Below are positions 1 to 16,153 of a stretch of 64,000 nucleotides of DNA, in pieces (positions within the stretch are counted from its first letter, which is position 1; every line of letters starts with the position of its first letter). The stretch comes from Haloactinopolyspora alba (GTDB lineage Bacteria > Actinomycetota > Actinomycetes > Jiangellales > Jiangellaceae), in the NCBI RefSeq assembly GCF_003014555.1, contig NZ_PYGE01000001.1, positions 372,001 to 436,000 on the forward strand. The letters are read 5' to 3'. The position numbers and the translations under genes are program-made. Under the pieces are notes generated by a model that worked only from the letters and a program-made list of their open reading frames with translations, searched no databases and had not been told where the DNA came from.

Positions 1-1353
1 GACGTCGCGGACCGCGCCACTGCTCTGCGGGACCACCCGCACCGACCGCAGCGCGTTGTCGTAGGCGTCCATCGCCGAGTCGGTCCGGCCCAGGTCGCGG
101 TACAGGTCCGCGAGCTCGCGCCAGGCCGCCGCGGCCACCCGCGTCGCGCCCATCGACTCGAGCATCGACGCGGCGAGCACGGCCTCGCGGATGCTGCCGT
201 CGACGTCGCCCTGTGCGCGCACGATGCGCGCCAGCGTGAGCCGGGCCAGAGCGGCGCCGACCCGCGGCTGGTCACCCAGTTCGCGCAGCGACTCGTCGAC
301 CGCGGCCTTGGCCTCGTCGAGCCGCCCGAGCAGCGCGAGAGCGTCGGCACGGTGCTTGTGGTACGCGGCCACGTCCACGCTGCCGCCGTAGCGCTTGATG
401 CTCTCGGCCACGCCGTCGAGGATGTCCAGAGCCTCTTGCGCCTTCGGCTCGGTGCCCTGGAGCAGCAGCCACGCGTGCGCCACCTTGAGCCGGGCGAGGT
501 TCCGCAGGTCGTCACCCTCGCCGAACATCGCCAGTGCGCGATCGACGAGGTTGAGCGCGAGCGCAAGCTCACCGCGCGACTCCGCGACCAGGGACGCGTT
601 CCAGTACGCCGCGCCGCGGGTGTGCGGAGCGCCGATCTTGTCCGCCGCCGCGACGAGCTCCGCCGACAGCGACTTCGAACGGACGAGGTCGCCACGGCTC
701 TGGTACGCGCCGAGAACGGTGCACCCGAGCCGGATGTACTCGTCGGTGCTCTCGAGACCGAGGTCGCCGGCGGCCCGGCGCGCCTCCTCGCCGACCTGGA
801 TCGCCATGTCGAAGTCGCCCGCGCGGTCGTAGCAACGCGTCAGCGCGATGGCGACGTCGAGCCAGGACTGCACCTCGGGGCTCTGCCGTGCCTCGTCGGC
901 GAGCTCGTTGAGCAGTTCGATGGCGCCTTCGAGGTCGCCGTTGCGCTCGCGGGCGTTGGCCCGGCCGAGCCGGGCCTGCCGGTCCTGCTCGTCGTTGAGG
1001 CCGGGGTCACCCATGAGCTCGGTGAACTGCTGGTAGGCCTCTTCGGCACGGCCCTCACGCAGCGCCACCTCGGCGCGGCCCAGGGCGAGCCGGGCGCGGG
1101 TGCGCACGGACGCGTCCACCCCGTCGCGGAGATATTCGACGTCGATGCGCAGCCTTTCGGCGATGTGCGCAAGCGCCGAGGCCGCCGGCTGACGGCGGCC
1201 GCTCTCGACGAGCGAGACGTAGCTCGGCGACAACATGCCCTCGGCGATCTCGGCCTGGGAAAGGCCGAGCTCCAACCGGCGGGATCGGATACGCTGCCCG
1301 ACGGGCGTCGGAAGCGGCGCCTCGTCCACTGTTGCTGGCTGGTCATCTGTCAT
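1..1353 (-). CDS. XRE-family regulator with TPR sensor domain, partial
   Basis: Reverse-strand frame open from ATG at 1353 to the window edge (451 codons, C-terminus missing). Residues about 17-75 form a Cro/C1-type helix-turn-helix (GQRIRSRRLELGLSQAEIAE, then SPSYVSLVESGRRQPA). From about residue 85 on, the protein is a run of alanine-rich helical pairs typical of tetratricopeptide repeats, for example EAYQQF, GDLEGAIELLNEL and GRLDEAKAAVDES. This HTH-TPR layout is that of RRNPPA-type peptide-sensing regulators and of many uncharacterised actinobacterial regulators. A tiny secreted-peptide gene lies 69 bp away in divergent orientation, so peptide sensing is a reasonable inference but not proven. 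A perfect palindrome covers the start codon, suggesting autoregulation. Confidence 0.85.
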   Translation of the reverse strand, partial: MTDDQPATVDEAPLPTPVGQRIRSRRLELGLSQAEIAEGMLSPSYVSLVESGRRQPAASALAHIAERLRIDVEYLRDGVDASVRTRARLALGRAEVALREGRAEEAYQQFTELMGDPGLNDEQDRQARLGRANARERNGDLEGAIELLNELADEARQSPEVQSWLDVAIALTRCYDRAGDFDMAIQVGEEARRAAGDLGLESTDEYIRLGCTVLGAYQSRGDLVRSKSLSAELVAAADKIGAPHTRGAAYWNASLVAESRGELALALNLVDRALAMFGEGDDLRNLARLKVAHAWLLLQGTEPKAQEALDILDGVAESIKRYGGSVDVAAYHKHRADALALLGRLDEAKAAVDESLRELGDQPRVGAALARLTLARIVRAQGDVDGSIREAVLAASMLESMGATRVAAAAWRELADLYRDLGRTDSAMDAYDNALRSVRVVPQSSGAVRDV

Positions 1354-1358
1354 GACAG
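1347..1358. promoter_or_regulatory. Palindrome over the regulator start codon
   Basis: CTGTCATGACAG is a perfect 12-bp palindrome that contains the ATG (1351-1353) of the XRE-TPR gene. It is a plausible autoregulatory operator in the 69-bp divergent region. Binding is inferred only from symmetry and position. Confidence 0.4.
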
Positions 1359-1422
1359 TATTGGACAACAGTCAGTCACAATTTGCCACCCCCGAATAGC
1401 TACTTGAGGAGTTCGATCAAGG

Positions 1423-1545
1423 ATGGGACGTGTCAAGCGAGTAGCCGCCGCCATCGCTACGACGTTCGCCATCATGTTCGCCGTGGCCGCTCCCGCAGCG
1501 GCGACGACGTCCACGCCTGACGAACCGGGCATGTACTGCTGCTGA
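1423..1545 (+). CDS. Small secreted peptide ending in Cys-Cys (40 aa)
   Basis: ATG at 1423 follows a GAGGAG-like ribosome site and ends at TGA 1543-1545. The product has a textbook signal peptide: basic start (MGRVKR), a hydrophobic core to about residue 23 and a PAAA cleavage region. It leaves a short mature peptide of about 13 residues, TTSTPDEPGMYCC if cut after the last Ala. The gene is divergent from an XRE-TPR regulator and is followed by a strong hairpin, so it has its own transcription unit. No enzyme domain is possible at this size. The likely role is an exported signalling peptide, or a redox or metal-binding peptide through the terminal Cys pair; both are inference. Confidence 0.6.
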   Translation: MGRVKRVAAAIATTFAIMFAVAAPAAATTSTPDEPGMYCC

Positions 1546-1563
1546 TCCGGCAGTCCTAGTGCC

Positions 1564-1615
1564 GCATGGACGGCATCCGGCGTCTCGCCCCCCGAACGCT
1601 GGATGCCGTCCATGC
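1564..1615 (+). terminator. Hairpin terminator after the small peptide gene
   Basis: Perfect 15-bp inverted repeat, GCATGGACGGCATCC at 1564-1578 and its complement at 1601-1615, with a 22-nt C-rich loop. It begins 18 nt after the peptide stop. It lacks a T-run, as is usual in high-GC actinobacteria. Confidence 0.7.
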
Positions 1616-1651
1616 TCTGTCCGCGCGCACTGACGCGTGGTTCCACGTCGG

Positions 1652-1679
1652 CGCTGATGTGTGATGTCTCACATCAGCG
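1652..1679 (-). terminator. Hairpin between convergent peptide gene and hisC
   Basis: CGCTGATGTG (1652-1661) and CACATCAGCG (1670-1679) form a perfect 10-bp stem with an 8-nt loop. It lies 32 bp beyond the hisC stop and probably ends that transcript. It could also act on the plus strand. Confidence 0.6.
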
Positions 1680-1711
1680 TTTCGGGGTGGCTCACCGGCC
1701 CTGCCGCCGGG

Positions 1712-2821
1712 CTATGGCCAGTCCGAGGCCAGCTGGATGAAGCGGTCGTTGGCCTCCTGCTCGCCGATGGTGACGCGGCACCCCTCGCCGGCGAACGGCC
1801 GCACCACCAGCCCGTGCGCCTCGCAGTGGGCGGCGAAGTCCGTGGTCCGCTCGCCCAGTGCCAGCCAGACGAAGTTGGCGTGGGTCACCGGCACGTCCCA
1901 ACCCTGCGACAGCAGCGCTTCCCGGACCCGCGTCCGTTCGGCCACCAGCGCCTCCACCCGCTCCAGCAGCGCGTCCTCGTGTGCCAGCGACTCGACGGCC
2001 GCGCGCTGGGCCACGCCGGAGACCCCGAACGGCACCGCCGTCTTCCGCAGCGCGTCCGCCACCCGCTCGTGCGCGACCGCGTACCCGACACGCAGGCCGG
2101 CCAGGCCGTACGCCTTCGAGAAGGTCCGCAGCACGCACACGTTCGGGTGCTCGCGGTACAGCGCGAGCCCGTCCGCGCCGTCCGGGTCACGGACGAACTC
2201 GCGGTACGCCTCGTCCACGACCACCAGCACGTCCTCGGGCACCCGGCGCACGAACGCGGCCAGCTCGTCGTGGCCGACCACCGGGCCGGTGGGGTTGTTG
2301 GGGCTGCACACCAGCACCAGCCGGGTCCGGTCGGTGACGGCGGCGGCCATCGCGTCGAGGTCGTGCCGCGCACCCGGCGCCAGGGGCACCCGCACGGACC
2401 GCGCTCCGGAGATGCCCACCACGATCGGGTAGGCCTCGAACGAGCGCCAGGCGTAGACGACCTCGTCGCCCTCGCCGGTCGTCGCCTGCACTATCTGCTG
2501 CAGCACGCCGACGCTGCCGGTACCGGTCGCCAGGTGCTCGGGCGGGACGCCGAGCCGGTCGGCCAACACGGCGACCAGGCCGGAGGCGAACATGTCCGGA
2601 TAGCGGTTCATCTCGGCGGCCGCCGACACCGCCGCCTCGACCACGCCGGGCAGCGGCGGATACGGGTTCTCGTTGGACGACACCTTGAAGGCGGGGCGCT
2701 CGCCGGACGCCGGCGCGGGGCGTCCCGGCCGGTACGAGGGCAGCTCGTCGAGCGCCGAGCGCAGCTGCACCGGGCGCGGCGCGTCCGGCGTGGAGTCCGG
2801 GCGGTCGGTGAATCGGGTCAT
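1712..2821 (-). CDS. hisC: Histidinol-phosphate aminotransferase
   Basis: 369-residue PLP-dependent fold-type I aminotransferase. Visible family landmarks are the N-terminal [12 protein letters not shown] segment, the SPNNPTGP loop, the VVDEAYREF segment whose Asp binds PLP, and [16 protein letters not shown], which carries the Schiff-base lysine. In histidine biosynthesis the enzyme converts imidazole acetol phosphate and glutamate to histidinol phosphate. No other his genes are near. A stand-alone hisC-like gene in actinobacteria can instead be the aromatic aminotransferase (pat), so the substrate is not certain. ATG at 2821 was chosen; it lies 56 bp from the divergent small membrane protein gene. 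Confidence 0.88.
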
Positions 2822-2877
2822 GCCCGTGCACGATAGCCGGTCCCGCGGCGGCGCTCCGATGTGTACGCTCGGCGTCC

Positions 2878-3252
2878 GTGATCTCCTTCCTCGTGCGCCT
2901 GATCGTGAACGGCCTCGCTCTGTGGGTCGCCACCGAAATCGTCGACGGCGTGACTGTCTCCTCTGACAGCACGTCGAACCAGGTCATCACATTGCTTGTC
3001 GTGGCGCTGATCTTCGCGCTCGTCAATGCGGTGATCAAACCGGTCGTGCAGCTTCTCTCGCTGCCATTACTGATCTTGACCCTCGGGTTGTTCACGCTTG
3101 TCGTGAATGCCCTGATGTTCTGGCTGACCTCGTGGATCGCCGACCAACTCGACGTCGGCTTCCATGTCGACGGGTTCTTCTGGGAAGCGGTCCTGGGAGC
3201 GTTGGTCGTCTCGTTCGTCAGTTGGCTGCTGAACCTGTTGTTGCCGGGCTGA
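2878..3252 (+). CDS. Phage-holin-like small membrane protein (superfamily IV)
   Basis: 124-residue protein starting at GTG, with four hydrophobic segments: roughly 2-20, 36-58, 62-83 and 100-122. The pattern, including [33 protein letters not shown], matches the YvlD/phage-holin superfamily IV membrane proteins common in bacteria. These are chromosomal proteins of unknown function and do not indicate a prophage here. The gene stands alone, divergent from hisC. Confidence 0.8.
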
Positions 3253-3338
3253 CCGAGCACAGGACCCCCGCGCGAGCTCCGAAACATTTTCGCGCACAAA
3301 GGTTGCGTCAGGCACCTTCCGTGACGGGGACATGTTCT

Positions 3339-3351
3339 GTACCTTTGGTAC
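3339..3351. promoter_or_regulatory. Palindrome GTACC-TTT-GGTAC upstream of the unknown gene
   Basis: Perfect 5-bp inverted arms around a TTT centre, about 90 bp before the next start codon in a 186-bp intergenic gap. The shape is operator-like. No regulator can be named. Confidence 0.3.
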
Positions 3352-3438
3352 GGCATCCCGCACGACGACGAAGCGTCTTCCTACCGGAGGCGTGACGGGG
3401 GTCGTTGTGCCCTGAACAAGCGTGGGCATGGTGAACAT

Positions 3439-3876
3439 ATGACGCTGGGCTATACCTCCGTCGGCTCGGTCCTGACCGAGCAACCCCCGTCCAACCACCA
3501 GCCGGACACGTCGCCCGGCCGCAGCTACAAGCCGAGCCGCCCGGTCCCGATGGCCGTCACGACACCACCCGGGTATCCCGAGCCGGATTCCAACCGGCAT
3601 GCGCTGCCCGGGTTCGACCAGTACGAGGTCGTCTACGACGATCAACACGGCAACCCGATGCTCGCCTTCGCCGACGGGCAATGGTTCGACGTGACGTCGC
3701 TGTCCCCGCGTCCGGTCTCGGTGCGGCACGCGCTGCGCCGCGATCCGGCCTGGTCCGGCGCCGTCGTGCAGACCATCTGCCTGTGGATGCGGAGCAACCC
3801 CCGCCACGAGCGCTCGTTCGACCTGGCCACCGAGTTGGCTCTGGCGGTCGGCGAACTGGCGCGCCAGCGCCGTTGA
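3439..3876 (+). CDS. Hypothetical protein, 145 aa
   Basis: I do not recognise this family. Residues 1-55 are Pro/Ser/Thr-rich and probably disordered. Residues about 57-145 look folded, with YEVVYDDQHGNPMLAFADGQWFDV followed by a helical segment rich in Arg, Trp and Leu. There is no signal peptide or membrane segment. It is followed after 16 bp by the phosphatase gene on the same strand, so the two may be co-transcribed. Coding reality is supported by strong third-position GC bias; the start at ATG 3439 is the first in frame. Confidence 0.6.
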   Translation: MTLGYTSVGSVLTEQPPSNHQPDTSPGRSYKPSRPVPMAVTTPPGYPEPDSNRHALPGFDQYEVVYDDQHGNPMLAFADGQWFDVTSLSPRPVSVRHALRRDPAWSGAVVQTICLWMRSNPRHERSFDLATELALAVGELARQRR

Positions 3877-3892
3877 CCGGCAGTCTGGAACC

Positions 3893-4432
3893 GTGACAGA
3901 ACCCACTCCCGACGTACACCTGTGTGTCGTCTGCACCGGAAACATCTGCCGATCACCGATAGCCGAGTTCGTGCTCCGCGACCGCCTGCGCGAGGCCGGC
4001 CTCGGCGCGCGGGTCTCGGTCGACTCCGCCGGCACCGGTGCCTGGCACCTCGGTGACCCGGCCGACCGCAGGGCCCTGGACGTGCTCCAACGGCACGGTT
4101 ACGACGGCAGCGCCCACCGCGCCCGCCAGTTCCGTGCCGAGTGGTTCGCCAGCACCGATCTCGTCCTTGCCATGGACCGTGACCATCTGGCCCATCTGCA
4201 CGCACTGGCACCCGATGCGGCGGCCCGCGCCAGCATCCAGCTGTTCCGGGCCTACGATGTCGACGCGCTCACCGGCGGGGACCTCGACGTCCCGGACCCG
4301 TACTTCGACGACCACGCGTCGTTCGAGCGGGTGCTGTCCATGGTCGAGTCCGCGGCCGCCGGCATCGTCGGCACGCTTCGCAACGAGCTCACCGTCGCCG
4401 AGGCGGAAGGTGGTGAGCCCGGTCGAGGCTGA
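3893..4432 (+). CDS. Low-molecular-weight protein-tyrosine phosphatase
   Basis: 179 residues from GTG 3893. The N-terminal catalytic loop V-C-T-G-N-I-C-R-S-P fits the CX5R signature, with Cys14 as nucleophile and Arg20. The general-acid loop DVPDPYFDD lies near residue 135. The family dephosphorylates phosphotyrosine proteins, and some members act on polysaccharide-synthesis kinases or on arsenate. No arsenic genes are present. The 3' end overlaps the next gene by about 20 nt, indicating translational coupling with the fructosamine-kinase-like gene. Length is slightly above the usual 150-165 residues because of an acidic tail. Confidence 0.92.
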   Translation: MTEPTPDVHLCVVCTGNICRSPIAEFVLRDRLREAGLGARVSVDSAGTGAWHLGDPADRRALDVLQRHGYDGSAHRARQFRAEWFASTDLVLAMDRDHLAHLHALAPDAAARASIQLFRAYDVDALTGGDLDVPDPYFDDHASFERVLSMVESAAAGIVGTLRNELTVAEAEGGEPGRG

Positions 4433-5282
4433 CCCGCTCGCCCGCCTGCTGGACGTGCCGGTGGCGTCGGCGACCTCCGTCGGCGGGGGTTCGATCTGTG
4501 ACGCTCGCCGCGCGCGCTTGAGCGACGGCCGCACGATCTTCGTCAAGACCCGCGCGTCGGCACCGGCCGGCTTCTTCAGCTCCGAGGTCAACGGTCTCGA
4601 ACGGCTCGGCGCGGCGCGTCAGGGCGCGGCGGTCCCACGCGTCCTGGCCCACGACGACGAATGCCTCGTCCTCGAGTGGATCGCCACCGGGGTGCCGTCG
4701 GTCCAGGCGGCGGAGCGGTTCGGTCGCGCGCTCGCCGCGACCCACCGCCACGGCGCCGATCGGTTCGGCTCCGCGGACGGCGACGGCTGGATCGCCACGT
4801 TGCCGTTGCCGGGCGGCCCCTGGGAGTCCTGGCCGCGGATGTGGGTGCAGGGGCGCATCGAGCCGTACCTGCGGATGGCTCGTAAGGCCGGCGCGATCGA
4901 CAAGCGCTCGGCCGCGGACGTCGAGCGGGTCATCGAAGACATCGACCGGCTGGCCGGACCGGCCGAGCCGCCGTCGATGCTGCACGGCGACCTGTGGGCC
5001 GGAAACGTCCTCTGGGCCGAGGACGGCACCAACTACCTCATCGACCCGGCGGCCCACGGCGGCCACCGTGAGACCGACCTGGCGATGCTGGCCCTGTTCG
5101 GCCTCCCCCACCTCGACCGGGTACTGGCCGCCTACCACGAGGCCTCCCCGCTGGCGGACGGCTGGCGGGAGCGCACTGCACTGCACCAGTTGCATCCCGT
5201 GCTGGTGCACGCGGTACTCTTCGGCGGCTCGTACGGCGCCCAAGCCGGACAACTGGCGCGACTCGCCCTACGCGGCGGCTGA
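4413..5282 (+). CDS. Fructosamine kinase family protein
   Basis: About 289 residues. The aminoglycoside-phosphotransferase-like kinase fold is shown by LHGDLWAGNVLW (catalytic loop with Asp and Asn) and YLIDPAAHGGHRETDLAMLALFG (metal-binding Asp and the family-typical HRETDLAM). Fructosamine-3-kinases phosphorylate ketosamine adducts on proteins or small amines so that they decompose (deglycation); bacterial members may prefer ribulosamines. The start is uncertain: GTG at 4410 or 4413, both inside the end of the phosphatase gene. Pairing with a low-Mr phosphatase suggests a protein-repair operon, because such phosphatases can act in ribulosamine metabolism; that link is inference. Confidence 0.88.
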   Translation: MSPVEADPLARLLDVPVASATSVGGGSICDARRARLSDGRTIFVKTRASAPAGFFSSEVNGLERLGAARQGAAVPRVLAHDDECLVLEWIATGVPSVQAAERFGRALAATHRHGADRFGSADGDGWIATLPLPGGPWESWPRMWVQGRIEPYLRMARKAGAIDKRSAADVERVIEDIDRLAGPAEPPSMLHGDLWAGNVLWAEDGTNYLIDPAAHGGHRETDLAMLALFGLPHLDRVLAAYHEASPLADGWRERTALHQLHPVLVHAVLFGGSYGAQAGQLARLALRGG

Positions 5283-5322
5283 CCCCGCGATCGCCGCGGC
5301 GCCATGACCTTGCCGTCGGCGT

Positions 5323-5353
5323 TTGACCTTGTCGTGAGGTCGGGGTTTCTACT
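5323..5353 (+). promoter_or_regulatory. MerR-type promoter with 19-bp spacer
   Basis: TTGACC (5323-5328) is followed by a 19-bp spacer and TCTACT (5348-5353). The -35 box overlaps the dyad GACCT...AGGTC (5325-5329, 5337-5341). An over-long spacer with a dyad in it is the hallmark of promoters activated by MerR-family regulators. It lies about 120 bp upstream of the ABC exporter operon. No merR gene is visible nearby. Confidence 0.45.
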
Positions 5354-5373
5354 GAGGGTGTGCGTATCGGAGA

Positions 5374-5391
5374 GTCCACCCTGGGGTGGAC
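5374..5391. promoter_or_regulatory. 18-bp palindrome in the ABC operon leader
   Basis: GTCCACCC-TG-GGGTGGAC is perfectly symmetric. It lies between the MerR-like promoter and the ATPase start, so it could be a second operator or a leader hairpin. Its role is inferred from symmetry only. Confidence 0.4.
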
Positions 5392-5476
5392 GACGTACCT
5401 CCACACCGAGAATGACCACCACGGAGGCGTCGACCCGATAGGTTCGCACCGGACCATTGACCGATCGGGAGAATCG

Positions 5477-6451
5477 ATGATCACCGCGCAGTCACTCCGC
5501 AAACGCTACGGCGACAAAGTCGCCGTGGACGACCTGTCGTTCGAGGTCCAACCAGGCCTCGTGACCGGCTTTCTCGGCCCGAACGGGGCCGGCAAGTCGA
5601 CGACGATGCGCCTCATGCTCGACCTCGACCACGGCTCCGGCGAGACACTCTTCGACGGCCGCAGGTTCGACACCATCCGGCACCCGATGCGCGAGATCGG
5701 CGCCGTGCTGGAAGCCAAGTCCTTCCATCCGACCCGTACCGCACGCAACCACCTGCGCATGCTCGCCGCGGGCTCGGCGCTGCCGGCGTCGCGCGCCGAC
5801 GAGGTGCTCGAGTTCGTGGGACTCACCGAGGTGCGGAACAAGAAACCCAGCGGCTTCTCGCTGGGGATGGCGCAGCGGCTCGGGCTCGCCCAGGCGCTGC
5901 TCGGCGACCCCTCCACGCTCATCCTCGACGAACCGGCGAACGGCCTCGACCCGCACGGCATCCACTGGCTGCGCGACGTCCTGAAGTCGCTGGCCGCGCA
6001 GGGACGCACCATCTTCGTCTCCAGCCACCTGTTGTCCGAGATGTCGCTGATGGCCGACGAGCTCGTCGTCATCGGCCGTGGTTCCATGATCTACAACGGT
6101 GACGTGGACGGCTTCGTGAAGCGATTCACCCAGTCCACCGTGCGGGTCAAGACGCCGGACGCGTCCGAGTTCGTCGAGACGCTGCGCGGCATGGGAGCGA
6201 CGGTGGACACCGTCCCGGACGGCGACCTGATGGTCTCCGGGGTGGACGCACCCACCATCGGCGATCGTGCCCACGACGACGGCATCAGACTGCACGAACT
6301 GGCGACCCAGACGGCGTCCCTGGAGACCGCATTCATCTCCGCCACCGGGGCCTCCGAGGAGTACGTCGCGCACGAAGTCAACGAGGAGACGACGAACATG
6401 CTCACCGAGCCGTCCGCGGCCGACGACACGAACCGCGGAGGTGCGGCGTGA
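5477..6451 (+). CDS. ABC-2 type exporter, ATP-binding subunit
   Basis: 324 residues from ATG 5477, which has a GGGAGA-like ribosome site; an in-frame GTG 117 nt upstream would add an unconserved tail and was not used. Walker A is GPNGAGKST, the signature is SGFSLGMAQRLGLAQALLGDP, Walker B is LILDEPANGLDP and the switch His lies in SSHLL. The C-terminal third is the variable domain of DrrA/CcmA-like ATPases. It overlaps the permease gene by 4 nt (GTGA). Together they form an efflux pump of the type used for drugs, peptides or lipids; the substrate is unknown. A MerR-like promoter upstream hints at induction by a toxic compound. Confidence 0.93.
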   Translation: MITAQSLRKRYGDKVAVDDLSFEVQPGLVTGFLGPNGAGKSTTMRLMLDLDHGSGETLFDGRRFDTIRHPMREIGAVLEAKSFHPTRTARNHLRMLAAGSALPASRADEVLEFVGLTEVRNKKPSGFSLGMAQRLGLAQALLGDPSTLILDEPANGLDPHGIHWLRDVLKSLAAQGRTIFVSSHLLSEMSLMADELVVIGRGSMIYNGDVDGFVKRFTQSTVRVKTPDASEFVETLRGMGATVDTVPDGDLMVSGVDAPTIGDRAHDDGIRLHELATQTASLETAFISATGASEEYVAHEVNEETTNMLTEPSAADDTNRGGAA

Positions 6452-15046: not shown

Positions 15047-16153
15047 TCACCCCGAACCCCACTGCTGACGCAGATGGGCCAGCGCCCGCCGCTCGATCTG
15101 GCGGACCCGTTCGCGCGTGATGCCGTAGACCGACCCGATCTCGGCCAGCGTCCGCGGCGCGGTGCCGTCCAGCCCGAACCGCCGCACGAGCACGTCGGCG
15201 CTGCGCGGACCGAGGGCCGCGGCCACCTGCCGCAGCGAGGCCGCGACGTCGATCTCGGCGTCGACGCCGGCGCTGAAGTCGGGGACCGCGCGGACCCCGT
15301 GCTCGGGACGGAACTCACCCGACCCCGCGGCCGCGGGGTCGACCCGCCGGGCCGCCACCGGCTGGACTCGGCCACGGGCCAGCGCCCGCCGTACGGTGCG
15401 CTCGTCCAGGCCCAGGTCGGCGGCCAGGGAGGAGTCCGTCCAGGCGGCGCCCCGCCGCCGGAGTTCGGCCACCCGCCCCTCGACCCGGCTGATGACGGCG
15501 GTCATGTACGCGGGCACCCGGATGGCCCGGGACTGGTCGGTCAGCGCCCGCACCACGGCCTGCCGGATCCACCAGGTGGCGTAGGTGGAGAACCGGGTGC
15601 CGCGGGTGTGGTCGAACCGCTCGACAGCGCGGATCAGGCCGACGTTGCCCTCCTGGATCAGGTCCAGGAGATCGAGCCCGCGGCCCTGGTACCGCTTCGC
15701 CACGGAGACCACGAGCCGCAGGTTCGACGTCACGAGCCGGTCCCGCGCCCGTCGGCCGTCCTCGGCGACGGCGGCCAGCTCGCGCTGACGGTGCGGCCCC
15801 ACGACACCGGGAGCCGCCGCGAGGTACTCGGCGAACATGCCGGCCTCGATCCGCTTGGCCAGGTCGACCTCGTCGGCGGCGTCGAGCAGCGGATGCCGGC
15901 GCACCTGGCGCAGATAGTCCGCGGCCGCATCGCCGGAGACGATCCACTCCGTGCCGGCGCCGTCGGCGTCGCGGCTCGCCCGCGGGGCACAGCGCTCGCT
16001 TTCGGGACGGCCGCGGACGGGGTACGGCCACCGGAACCGGTGCCGGACGTAGGACCCGCCGCGTCGTCTCGCCCTGGCGTGCAGGCCGGTGCCGCCACGA
16101 GCGAGCTGCGGCCGGTCGCGGCGCGAAGCGCGATGCTCGAACATACGTGTCAT
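15047..16153 (-). CDS. Sigma-70 family RNA polymerase sigma factor, group 2
   Basis: 368 residues from ATG 16153, which has GGGGAG 5 nt upstream. About 75 N-terminal residues are Arg-rich and unconserved. Region 1.2 begins near DYLRQVRRHPLLDAADEVDLAKRIEAG. Region 2 is LVTSNLRLVVSVAKRYQGRGLDLLDLIQEGNVGLIRAVERFD with FSTYATWWIRQAVVRAL (2.3/2.4). Region 4 ends in TLAEIGSVYGITRERVRQIERRALAHLRQ. This is a principal-like, non-essential type sigma factor related to HrdA/HrdD. It was probably acquired into, or retained as, a stress or developmental regulon; no anti-sigma gene is adjacent. A CATAAT -10-like box lies about 40 bp upstream. Confidence 0.93.
   Translation of the reverse strand: MTRMFEHRASRRDRPQLARGGTGLHARARRRGGSYVRHRFRWPYPVRGRPESERCAPRASRDADGAGTEWIVSGDAAADYLRQVRRHPLLDAADEVDLAKRIEAGMFAEYLAAAPGVVGPHRQRELAAVAEDGRRARDRLVTSNLRLVVSVAKRYQGRGLDLLDLIQEGNVGLIRAVERFDHTRGTRFSTYATWWIRQAVVRALTDQSRAIRVPAYMTAVISRVEGRVAELRRRGAAWTDSSLAADLGLDERTVRRALARGRVQPVAARRVDPAAAGSGEFRPEHGVRAVPDFSAGVDAEIDVAASLRQVAAALGPRSADVLVRRFGLDGTAPRTLAEIGSVYGITRERVRQIERRALAHLRQQWGSG

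Follow-up and report, generated by a model that had tools for sequence, protein, structure and literature searches.

A short gene for a predicted exported peptide with a Cys-Cys end, paired with an XRE-TPR regulator, suggests a widespread peptide-signalling system in actinobacteria

The left end of the window, the 64,000-nucleotide stretch of the Haloactinopolyspora alba (Jiangellaceae) genome analysed here, contains a gene for a regulator with an XRE-type HTH domain and TPRs, and beside it a short ORF (sORF) that is easily overlooked. The locus raises the question of whether the two genes form a peptide-signalling pair, as a preliminary description had proposed, or whether the sORF has another role, or none. 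Surveys place the RRNPP receptors, which respond to peptides, in Bacillota/Firmicutes (PMC10075063, PMC9765709, PMC12700828), and accounts of quorum sensing in actinobacteria deal chiefly with small molecules, gamma-butyrolactones among them (PMC10075063, PMC4748050).

Examination of the window showed that the sORF (translation MGRVKRVAAAIATTFAIMFAVAAPAAATTSTPDEPGMYCC) is divergent from the regulator gene, which extends past the left edge with its C-terminal codons, by about 32 nt (Table 1). The features that the preliminary description had listed, namely divergence from an HTH-TPR regulator, a ribosome-binding site belonging to the sORF, and a palindrome over the regulator start, were all found. 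A GGAG.TCGATC stretch around the ribosome-binding site is conserved in the aligned Jiangellaceae, and the palindrome core GTCATGAC is kept in 14 of them, half of this core being coding sequence. A regulon defined by the palindrome was considered and dropped, as the genome contains a single exact copy. The gene following the sORF encodes an aminotransferase and is convergent, so that the regulator and the peptide gene stand alone as a pair; an EamA transporter and an NRAMP gene are further neighbours. Searches of the peptide against Pfam gave nothing above cut-off, and neither regulator nor peptide reached the cut-off of any NCBIfam model.

Table 1. Positions of the features discussed, in window coordinates except for the last two rows, which give coordinates within the Streptomyces plasmid loci named
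Feature	Position	Strand	Remarks
XRE-TPR regulator (HTH and about nine TPRs)	1-1353	-	ATG at 1351-1353; Pfam HTH_3 and TPR; AlphaFold2 model
Palindrome, 12 bp, CTGTCATGACAG, candidate operator	1347-1358	.	Spans the regulator ATG; single copy in this genome
Ribosome-binding site of peptide gene, GAGGAG	1406-1411	+	Kept in 14 aligned Jiangellaceae
Gene for 40-aa exported propeptide with Cys-Cys end	1423-1545	+	Frame, signal peptide and Cys-Cys conserved; export predicted
Predicted mature tail, 13 residues, TTSTPDEPGMYCC	1504-1542	+	Predicted cut after residue 27 (AAA)
Cys-Cys codons of peptide gene	1537-1542	+	Invariant while the tail varies
3' hairpin with invariant C-rich loop, likely terminator, possibly small RNA	1564-1615	+	Covariation; Jiangellaceae only
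DLPLCC peptides, twice on one Streptomyces plasmid, beside NRPS genes	L261, ~4611 and 15202-15366		
DIPLCC peptide on a Streptomyces plasmid, beside SARP-type regulator	L259, 16518-16733		

Relatives were collected by regulator sequence from Jiangella aurantiaca, J. asiatica, J. rhizosphaerae, J. anatolica, J. muralis, J. endophytica, J. ureilytica and one MAG. Regulator orthologues were present in every complete Jiangellaceae genome tested, and the peptide as sole query led back to this locus in most Jiangellaceae genomes. Flanks were intact for 20 Jiangellaceae regulators, and each of these lies divergent from an sORF that encodes a signal peptide and a short tail, with Cys-Cys as its last two residues; a further locus (L026), in which the sORF is broken off by the contig end past the signal peptide, was left out of this count. 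The reading frame is retained in all relatives. Among 11 aligned peptide genes, differences at codon positions 1, 2 and 3 numbered 710, 522 and 961, the median dN/dS was 0.38, and the Cys-Cys pair showed no difference in 110 comparisons. Positions differing per comparison amounted to 37% in the signal peptide and 64% in the tail. Thus the short gene with a signal peptide and about 13 residues ending in GMYCC, as first described, is borne out in its frame, its signal peptide and its two cysteines. As judged from these alignments, the sORF encodes a predicted secreted peptide whose tail diversifies and whose end stays fixed.

Some Jiangellaceae tails combine Trp/Pro and Cys-Cys marks (DWPGMCC). 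A second Cys-Cys peptide, ...PWNDDGVR[DN]TPDGGSD[YF]CC, is present in J. muralis and J. endophytica, on the minus strand and convergent, right behind the same regulator (L057, ~6483; L058, ~6481), and one receptor may have two ligands in these species.

To follow the pair outside the family, a regulator HMM was run against 394 genomes of the class, 79 of which contained relatives. The flanks of 60 regulator places were read for sORFs, the criterion being a signal-peptide ORF with Cys-Cys terminal or at most five residues from the end. Such an sORF lies beside the XRE-TPR regulator at 31 loci outside Jiangellaceae, in seven other actinobacterial families (coded f9, f14, f17, f25, f26, f27 and f37). 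Nonomuraea gerenzanensis (L210), read from a named record, has one as well. Tail ends include HPPTCC, GPPFCC, AACECC, SLYCC, GGTWCC, NVWCC and NWPKCC. The sORF is mostly divergent from the regulator, convergent behind it in much of f26 and f14, and also seen downstream. That the association survives these changes of orientation argues for a functional link rather than an inherited neighbourhood. Control DNA totalling 442 kb, most of it taken from these same genomes, contained no strict Cys-Cys sORF match. A minority of regulators had no nearby sORF (e.g., L098-L100, L116-L118, L120, L127 and second copies in f17). Very small genomes of about 1.6-2.2 Mb (f25; L138, L140-L142) keep the pair, with the peptide ends GGIWCC, QGCCG, GGIWCCLV and GGQWCCDAIPA. 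Viral versions were also considered and dropped, as viral contigs gave just a short match in the HTH region.

Open frames abound in high-GC DNA, and the sORF could in principle be one of them. The retained frame, the codon-position signal, the dN/dS, the invariant Cys-Cys end, the co-occurrence in eight families and the empty control DNA refute a chance ORF, for which we see next to no probability left. The preliminary description had set beforehand, as the test of its reading, whether the frame and the Cys-Cys end persist beside orthologous regulators; both are kept, throughout Jiangellaceae as well as in seven or more further families, and the reading as a peptide-signalling pair is thereby supported.

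Homologous loci in which the peptide has no cysteines were also found. In f17 (Streptosporangiaceae), a clade nested among the Cys-Cys receptors (SH-aLRT 100) retains the signal peptide and has ends such as SFGWNHPG, SIGWVYPG, YGWGWPG and SPWQWPI. Beside chromosomal Streptomyces-like regulators (f19), the divergent ORF encodes a signal peptide followed by a variable non-Cys tail; one of these ORFs (L150) contains a tandem DIEWPNPRP...DIEWPVVRP, resembling tandem pheromone precursors. In families outside the class, ORFs of 24-36 aa lie by the regulator and end in PWGP, KWPWG, PNWGP, NWPHH or NWPKH, and a second sample of that other class gave the same type of sORF (MKALLVALGALGFAAMNGSLPWGP, MTRRTLTWLVSLGVLALAALNGQGPWPPM, MRLRLVRLAALIGLLASLVGGGVPWPH and others). 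With a looser Trp criterion, 18 matches were counted in 126 kb around other-class regulators, mostly at the expected divergent place, versus 8 in 380 kb of control DNA. The other-class sORFs (L220-L226, L229-L256) are hydrophobic, 24-36 aa long, with Trp/Pro/Gly ends (PWGP, NWPKH, GPYWP), and one genome of that class (G799) has five such regulators. To judge by these homologues, cysteines are not obligatory for the peptide/regulator system. A changed tail on a conserved signal peptide is what would be expected of pheromone diversification.

Downstream of the peptide gene, the preliminary description had seen a terminator. The hairpin found there has two-sided changes at 9 of 23 stem pairs, a result matched by 0 of 500 shuffles, and is followed by few Ts in the H. 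alba window, with clear T-runs in some relatives; a terminator is thus likely, not certain. An 18-nt stretch (CGTCTCGCCCCCCGAACG) is identical across 14 aligned copies, and the C-rich loop (GTCTCGCCCCCCGAAC) is invariant. The 16-nt core is present in all 20 Jiangellaceae loci, occurs as a single copy in each of the 12 Jiangellaceae genomes having it, and is absent from eight outgroup genomes; no C-rich hairpin was seen after the peptide gene in other families. The hairpin may be only a terminator, and its fixed C-rich loop suggests a candidate 3'-UTR small RNA. It shares its actinobacterial occurrence and C-rich loop with 6C RNA (Rfam RF01066). This identity was rejected, since no Rfam match at E<=1 was obtained for the hairpin in positions 1-6000 of the window, and the genome's own 6C RNA lies on contig C4.

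Cys codons immediately ahead of a stop, with a strong hairpin behind, are also what a cysteine-responsive attenuator would have, in which ribosomes stall on the terminal Cys codons at low cysteine and the hairpin switches a downstream operon. Cys-ended uORFs have been proposed as such attenuators in mycobacteria (PMC4633059), and are likewise small actinobacterial ORFs with terminal Cys codons; they precede co-directional operons, whereas the present sORF has a convergent next gene and a signal peptide conserved at the protein level. Where the pair is convergent (f26/f14), the sORF is followed by the regulator gene itself, in opposite orientation. An attenuator is contradicted by the convergent next gene and by the homologues without any Cys, and we regard it as very improbable.

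The sORF product might instead remain in the membrane, with the hydrophobic N-terminus serving as an uncleaved anchor, where it would partner or inhibit the regulator. Five of 40 Cys-Cys peptides have no AxA motif, and in the shortest relatives (24-28 aa) the tail comprises only about five residues, although streptococcal SHP propeptides are about as short. The other 35 peptides have a well-placed AxA site, and the predicted tail has a median length of 13 residues. The part that diversifies is the extracytoplasmic tail, for which a cytoplasmic contact would not account. A small membrane protein is therefore unlikely, and export of the propeptide followed by cleavage is predicted.

We then considered the regulator as a receptor for such a peptide. 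It contains an N-terminal HTH_3 domain (Pfam, E 1e-9) followed by TPRs, and an AlphaFold2 model built on an alignment of 56 relatives showed an HTH domain and a nine-repeat TPR solenoid, with a mean pLDDT of 89. Comparison of the model with solved structures gave matches to Rap with peptide (Z 24.7), NprR (Z 21.7-23.7) and PlcR-PapR (Z 20.4 over HTH and TPR). MalT domain III and eukaryotic TPR proteins matched with equally high scores, and the fold is for this reason permissive evidence only. In a profile search of solved structures the best natural regulator was PlcR, through its HTH. No model of an RRNPP subfamily (Rgg, ComR, Rap, AimR etc.) matched the regulator in Pfam at E<=1 or NCBIfam at E<=10, and it is accordingly not filed as a member, though it may work like one. 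The genome encodes eight SBP_bac_5 binding proteins of oligopeptide type, which are candidates for a part in re-import.

Residues of the receptor that might read the Cys-Cys end were also sought. Cys174 appeared invariant among 11 receptor sequences, and a mixed disulfide between it and the peptide was rejected, as several Cys-Cys receptors have V, A, I or L at this position. N252, in a helix of TPR5, is N or Q in 44 of 46 Cys-Cys receptors versus 1 of 16 non-Cys receptors, a sequence correlation that hints at a specificity residue; in a phylogeny-aware paired test its association with the Cys-Cys end was not significant, and some Trp-tailed relatives outside the class retain N at this position. 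With phylogeny considered, no candidate residue tracked the Cys-Cys end significantly.

Named Streptomyces linear plasmids contain a homologous regulator (~35% identity) together with Cys-Cys ORFs, whose annotation is either hypothetical or absent. Two of these, WP_123083198.1 (...AAHTKDIPLCC) and WP_331750220.1 (...DGDLPLCC), are annotated as hypothetical protein. On the plasmid of WP_331750220.1, beside NRPS genes, another ORF has the identical DLPLCC end behind an unrelated leader, and on the other plasmid the DIPLCC peptide lies beside the homologous regulator. Different leaders with the last six residues in common are as recognition of the C-terminus would give. The regulator lies within ~10 kb of NRPS genes on two Streptomyces plasmids.

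A short secreted peptide with terminal cysteines and an adjacent regulator, near biosynthetic genes on these plasmids, could also be the precursor of a RiPP or a bacteriocin, with the regulator controlling its cluster. No modification, immunity or dedicated export gene accompanies the pair in the window, the conserved unit is the pair alone, and the Streptomyces neighbours are NRPS genes rather than peptide-modifying ones, which leaves this explanation with little probability.

Vicinal cysteines are good metal ligands and redox centres, and the tail is otherwise hardly conserved. The peptide might act outside the cell, chelating a metal or reporting redox state, and the regulator would then govern its synthesis but not bind it; in the H. 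alba genome, Mn-transport genes (NRAMP, MntR-like) are found ~2.5 kb away from the regulator gene. Against this stand the non-Cys homologues beside the same type of regulator, the long TPR solenoid of peptide-binding type in the regulator model, and the named Streptomyces plasmid loci, where the annotation shows no metal gene adjacent to the regulator, a distant cutA in one locus aside. We consider an extracellular thiol or metal peptide improbable.

The reading that we favor, with a probability of roughly 0.7, is a two-gene peptide-signalling cassette, in which a secreted peptide and an intracellular receptor work in an RRNPP-like manner, outside the named RRNPP subfamilies by sequence. The 40-aa propeptide would be exported via Sec and cleaved at the AxA site to give a peptide of ~13 residues (TTSTPDEPGMYCC), which would accumulate outside the cell; its activity probably resides in the last 5-7 residues, with the Cys-Cys end. 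An oligopeptide ABC importer would bring a C-terminal Cys-Cys fragment back in, where it would bind the TPR groove of the regulator and alter its DNA binding at the shared divergent promoter, where the palindrome spans the regulator start codon, and at other targets. We infer from the locus that the sORF product is a pheromone, and that re-import, TPR binding, autoregulation and control of target genes would follow. Counting against signalling, linear peptides that are imported do not usually end in vicinal cysteines. The Cys-Cys pair may be a recognition element, comparable to the WW of streptococcal XIP, or may provide a redox- or metal-gated form.

Comparison with the RRNPP(A) receptors (PlcR-PapR, NprR-NprX, Rap-Phr, Rgg-SHP, ComR-ComS) shows that the present system shares with them an XRE-type HTH with a TPR solenoid, and an adjacent short exported propeptide (export being predicted here) with a fixed leader and a variable C-terminal tail. 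It differs in belonging to Actinomycetota rather than Bacillota, in tails that end in Cys-Cys or Trp/Pro motifs, and in a peptide gene that is mostly divergent from or convergent with the receptor gene. The NsdA-family TPR-like regulators of Streptomyces (NCBIfam NF053720) are actinobacterial TPR regulators too, but the similarity is weak, the 32 bits scored by the regulator lying far under the 75-bit cut-off. To our knowledge, no paired Cys-Cys peptide is known for NsdA. A literature search, with preprints and most subscription papers outside its scope, returned no account of such a pair in Actinobacteria, in agreement with the preliminary description, which had called circuits of this kind little described there.

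These results suggest a widespread, apparently undescribed peptide-signalling system in actinobacteria. On a broader reading, which we hold at about even odds, XRE-TPR receptors with tiny exported propeptides would extend across the phylum Actinomycetota: the Cys-Cys form would be the deep and widespread type among Actinomycetes, spanning very small genomes, Streptosporangiaceae and Streptomyces plasmids beside NRPS clusters, the Trp/Pro form would belong to other classes, and the cysteines could make signalling dependent on redox state or metals. At 24-60 aa, the peptides are short enough for their genes to be overlooked easily. If the signalling is real, it would add a new signalling layer in antibiotic producers, with the invariant Cys-Cys end as a novel type of pheromone mark, and the proximity to NRPS genes on two Streptomyces plasmids means that synthetic peptides might switch silent clusters.
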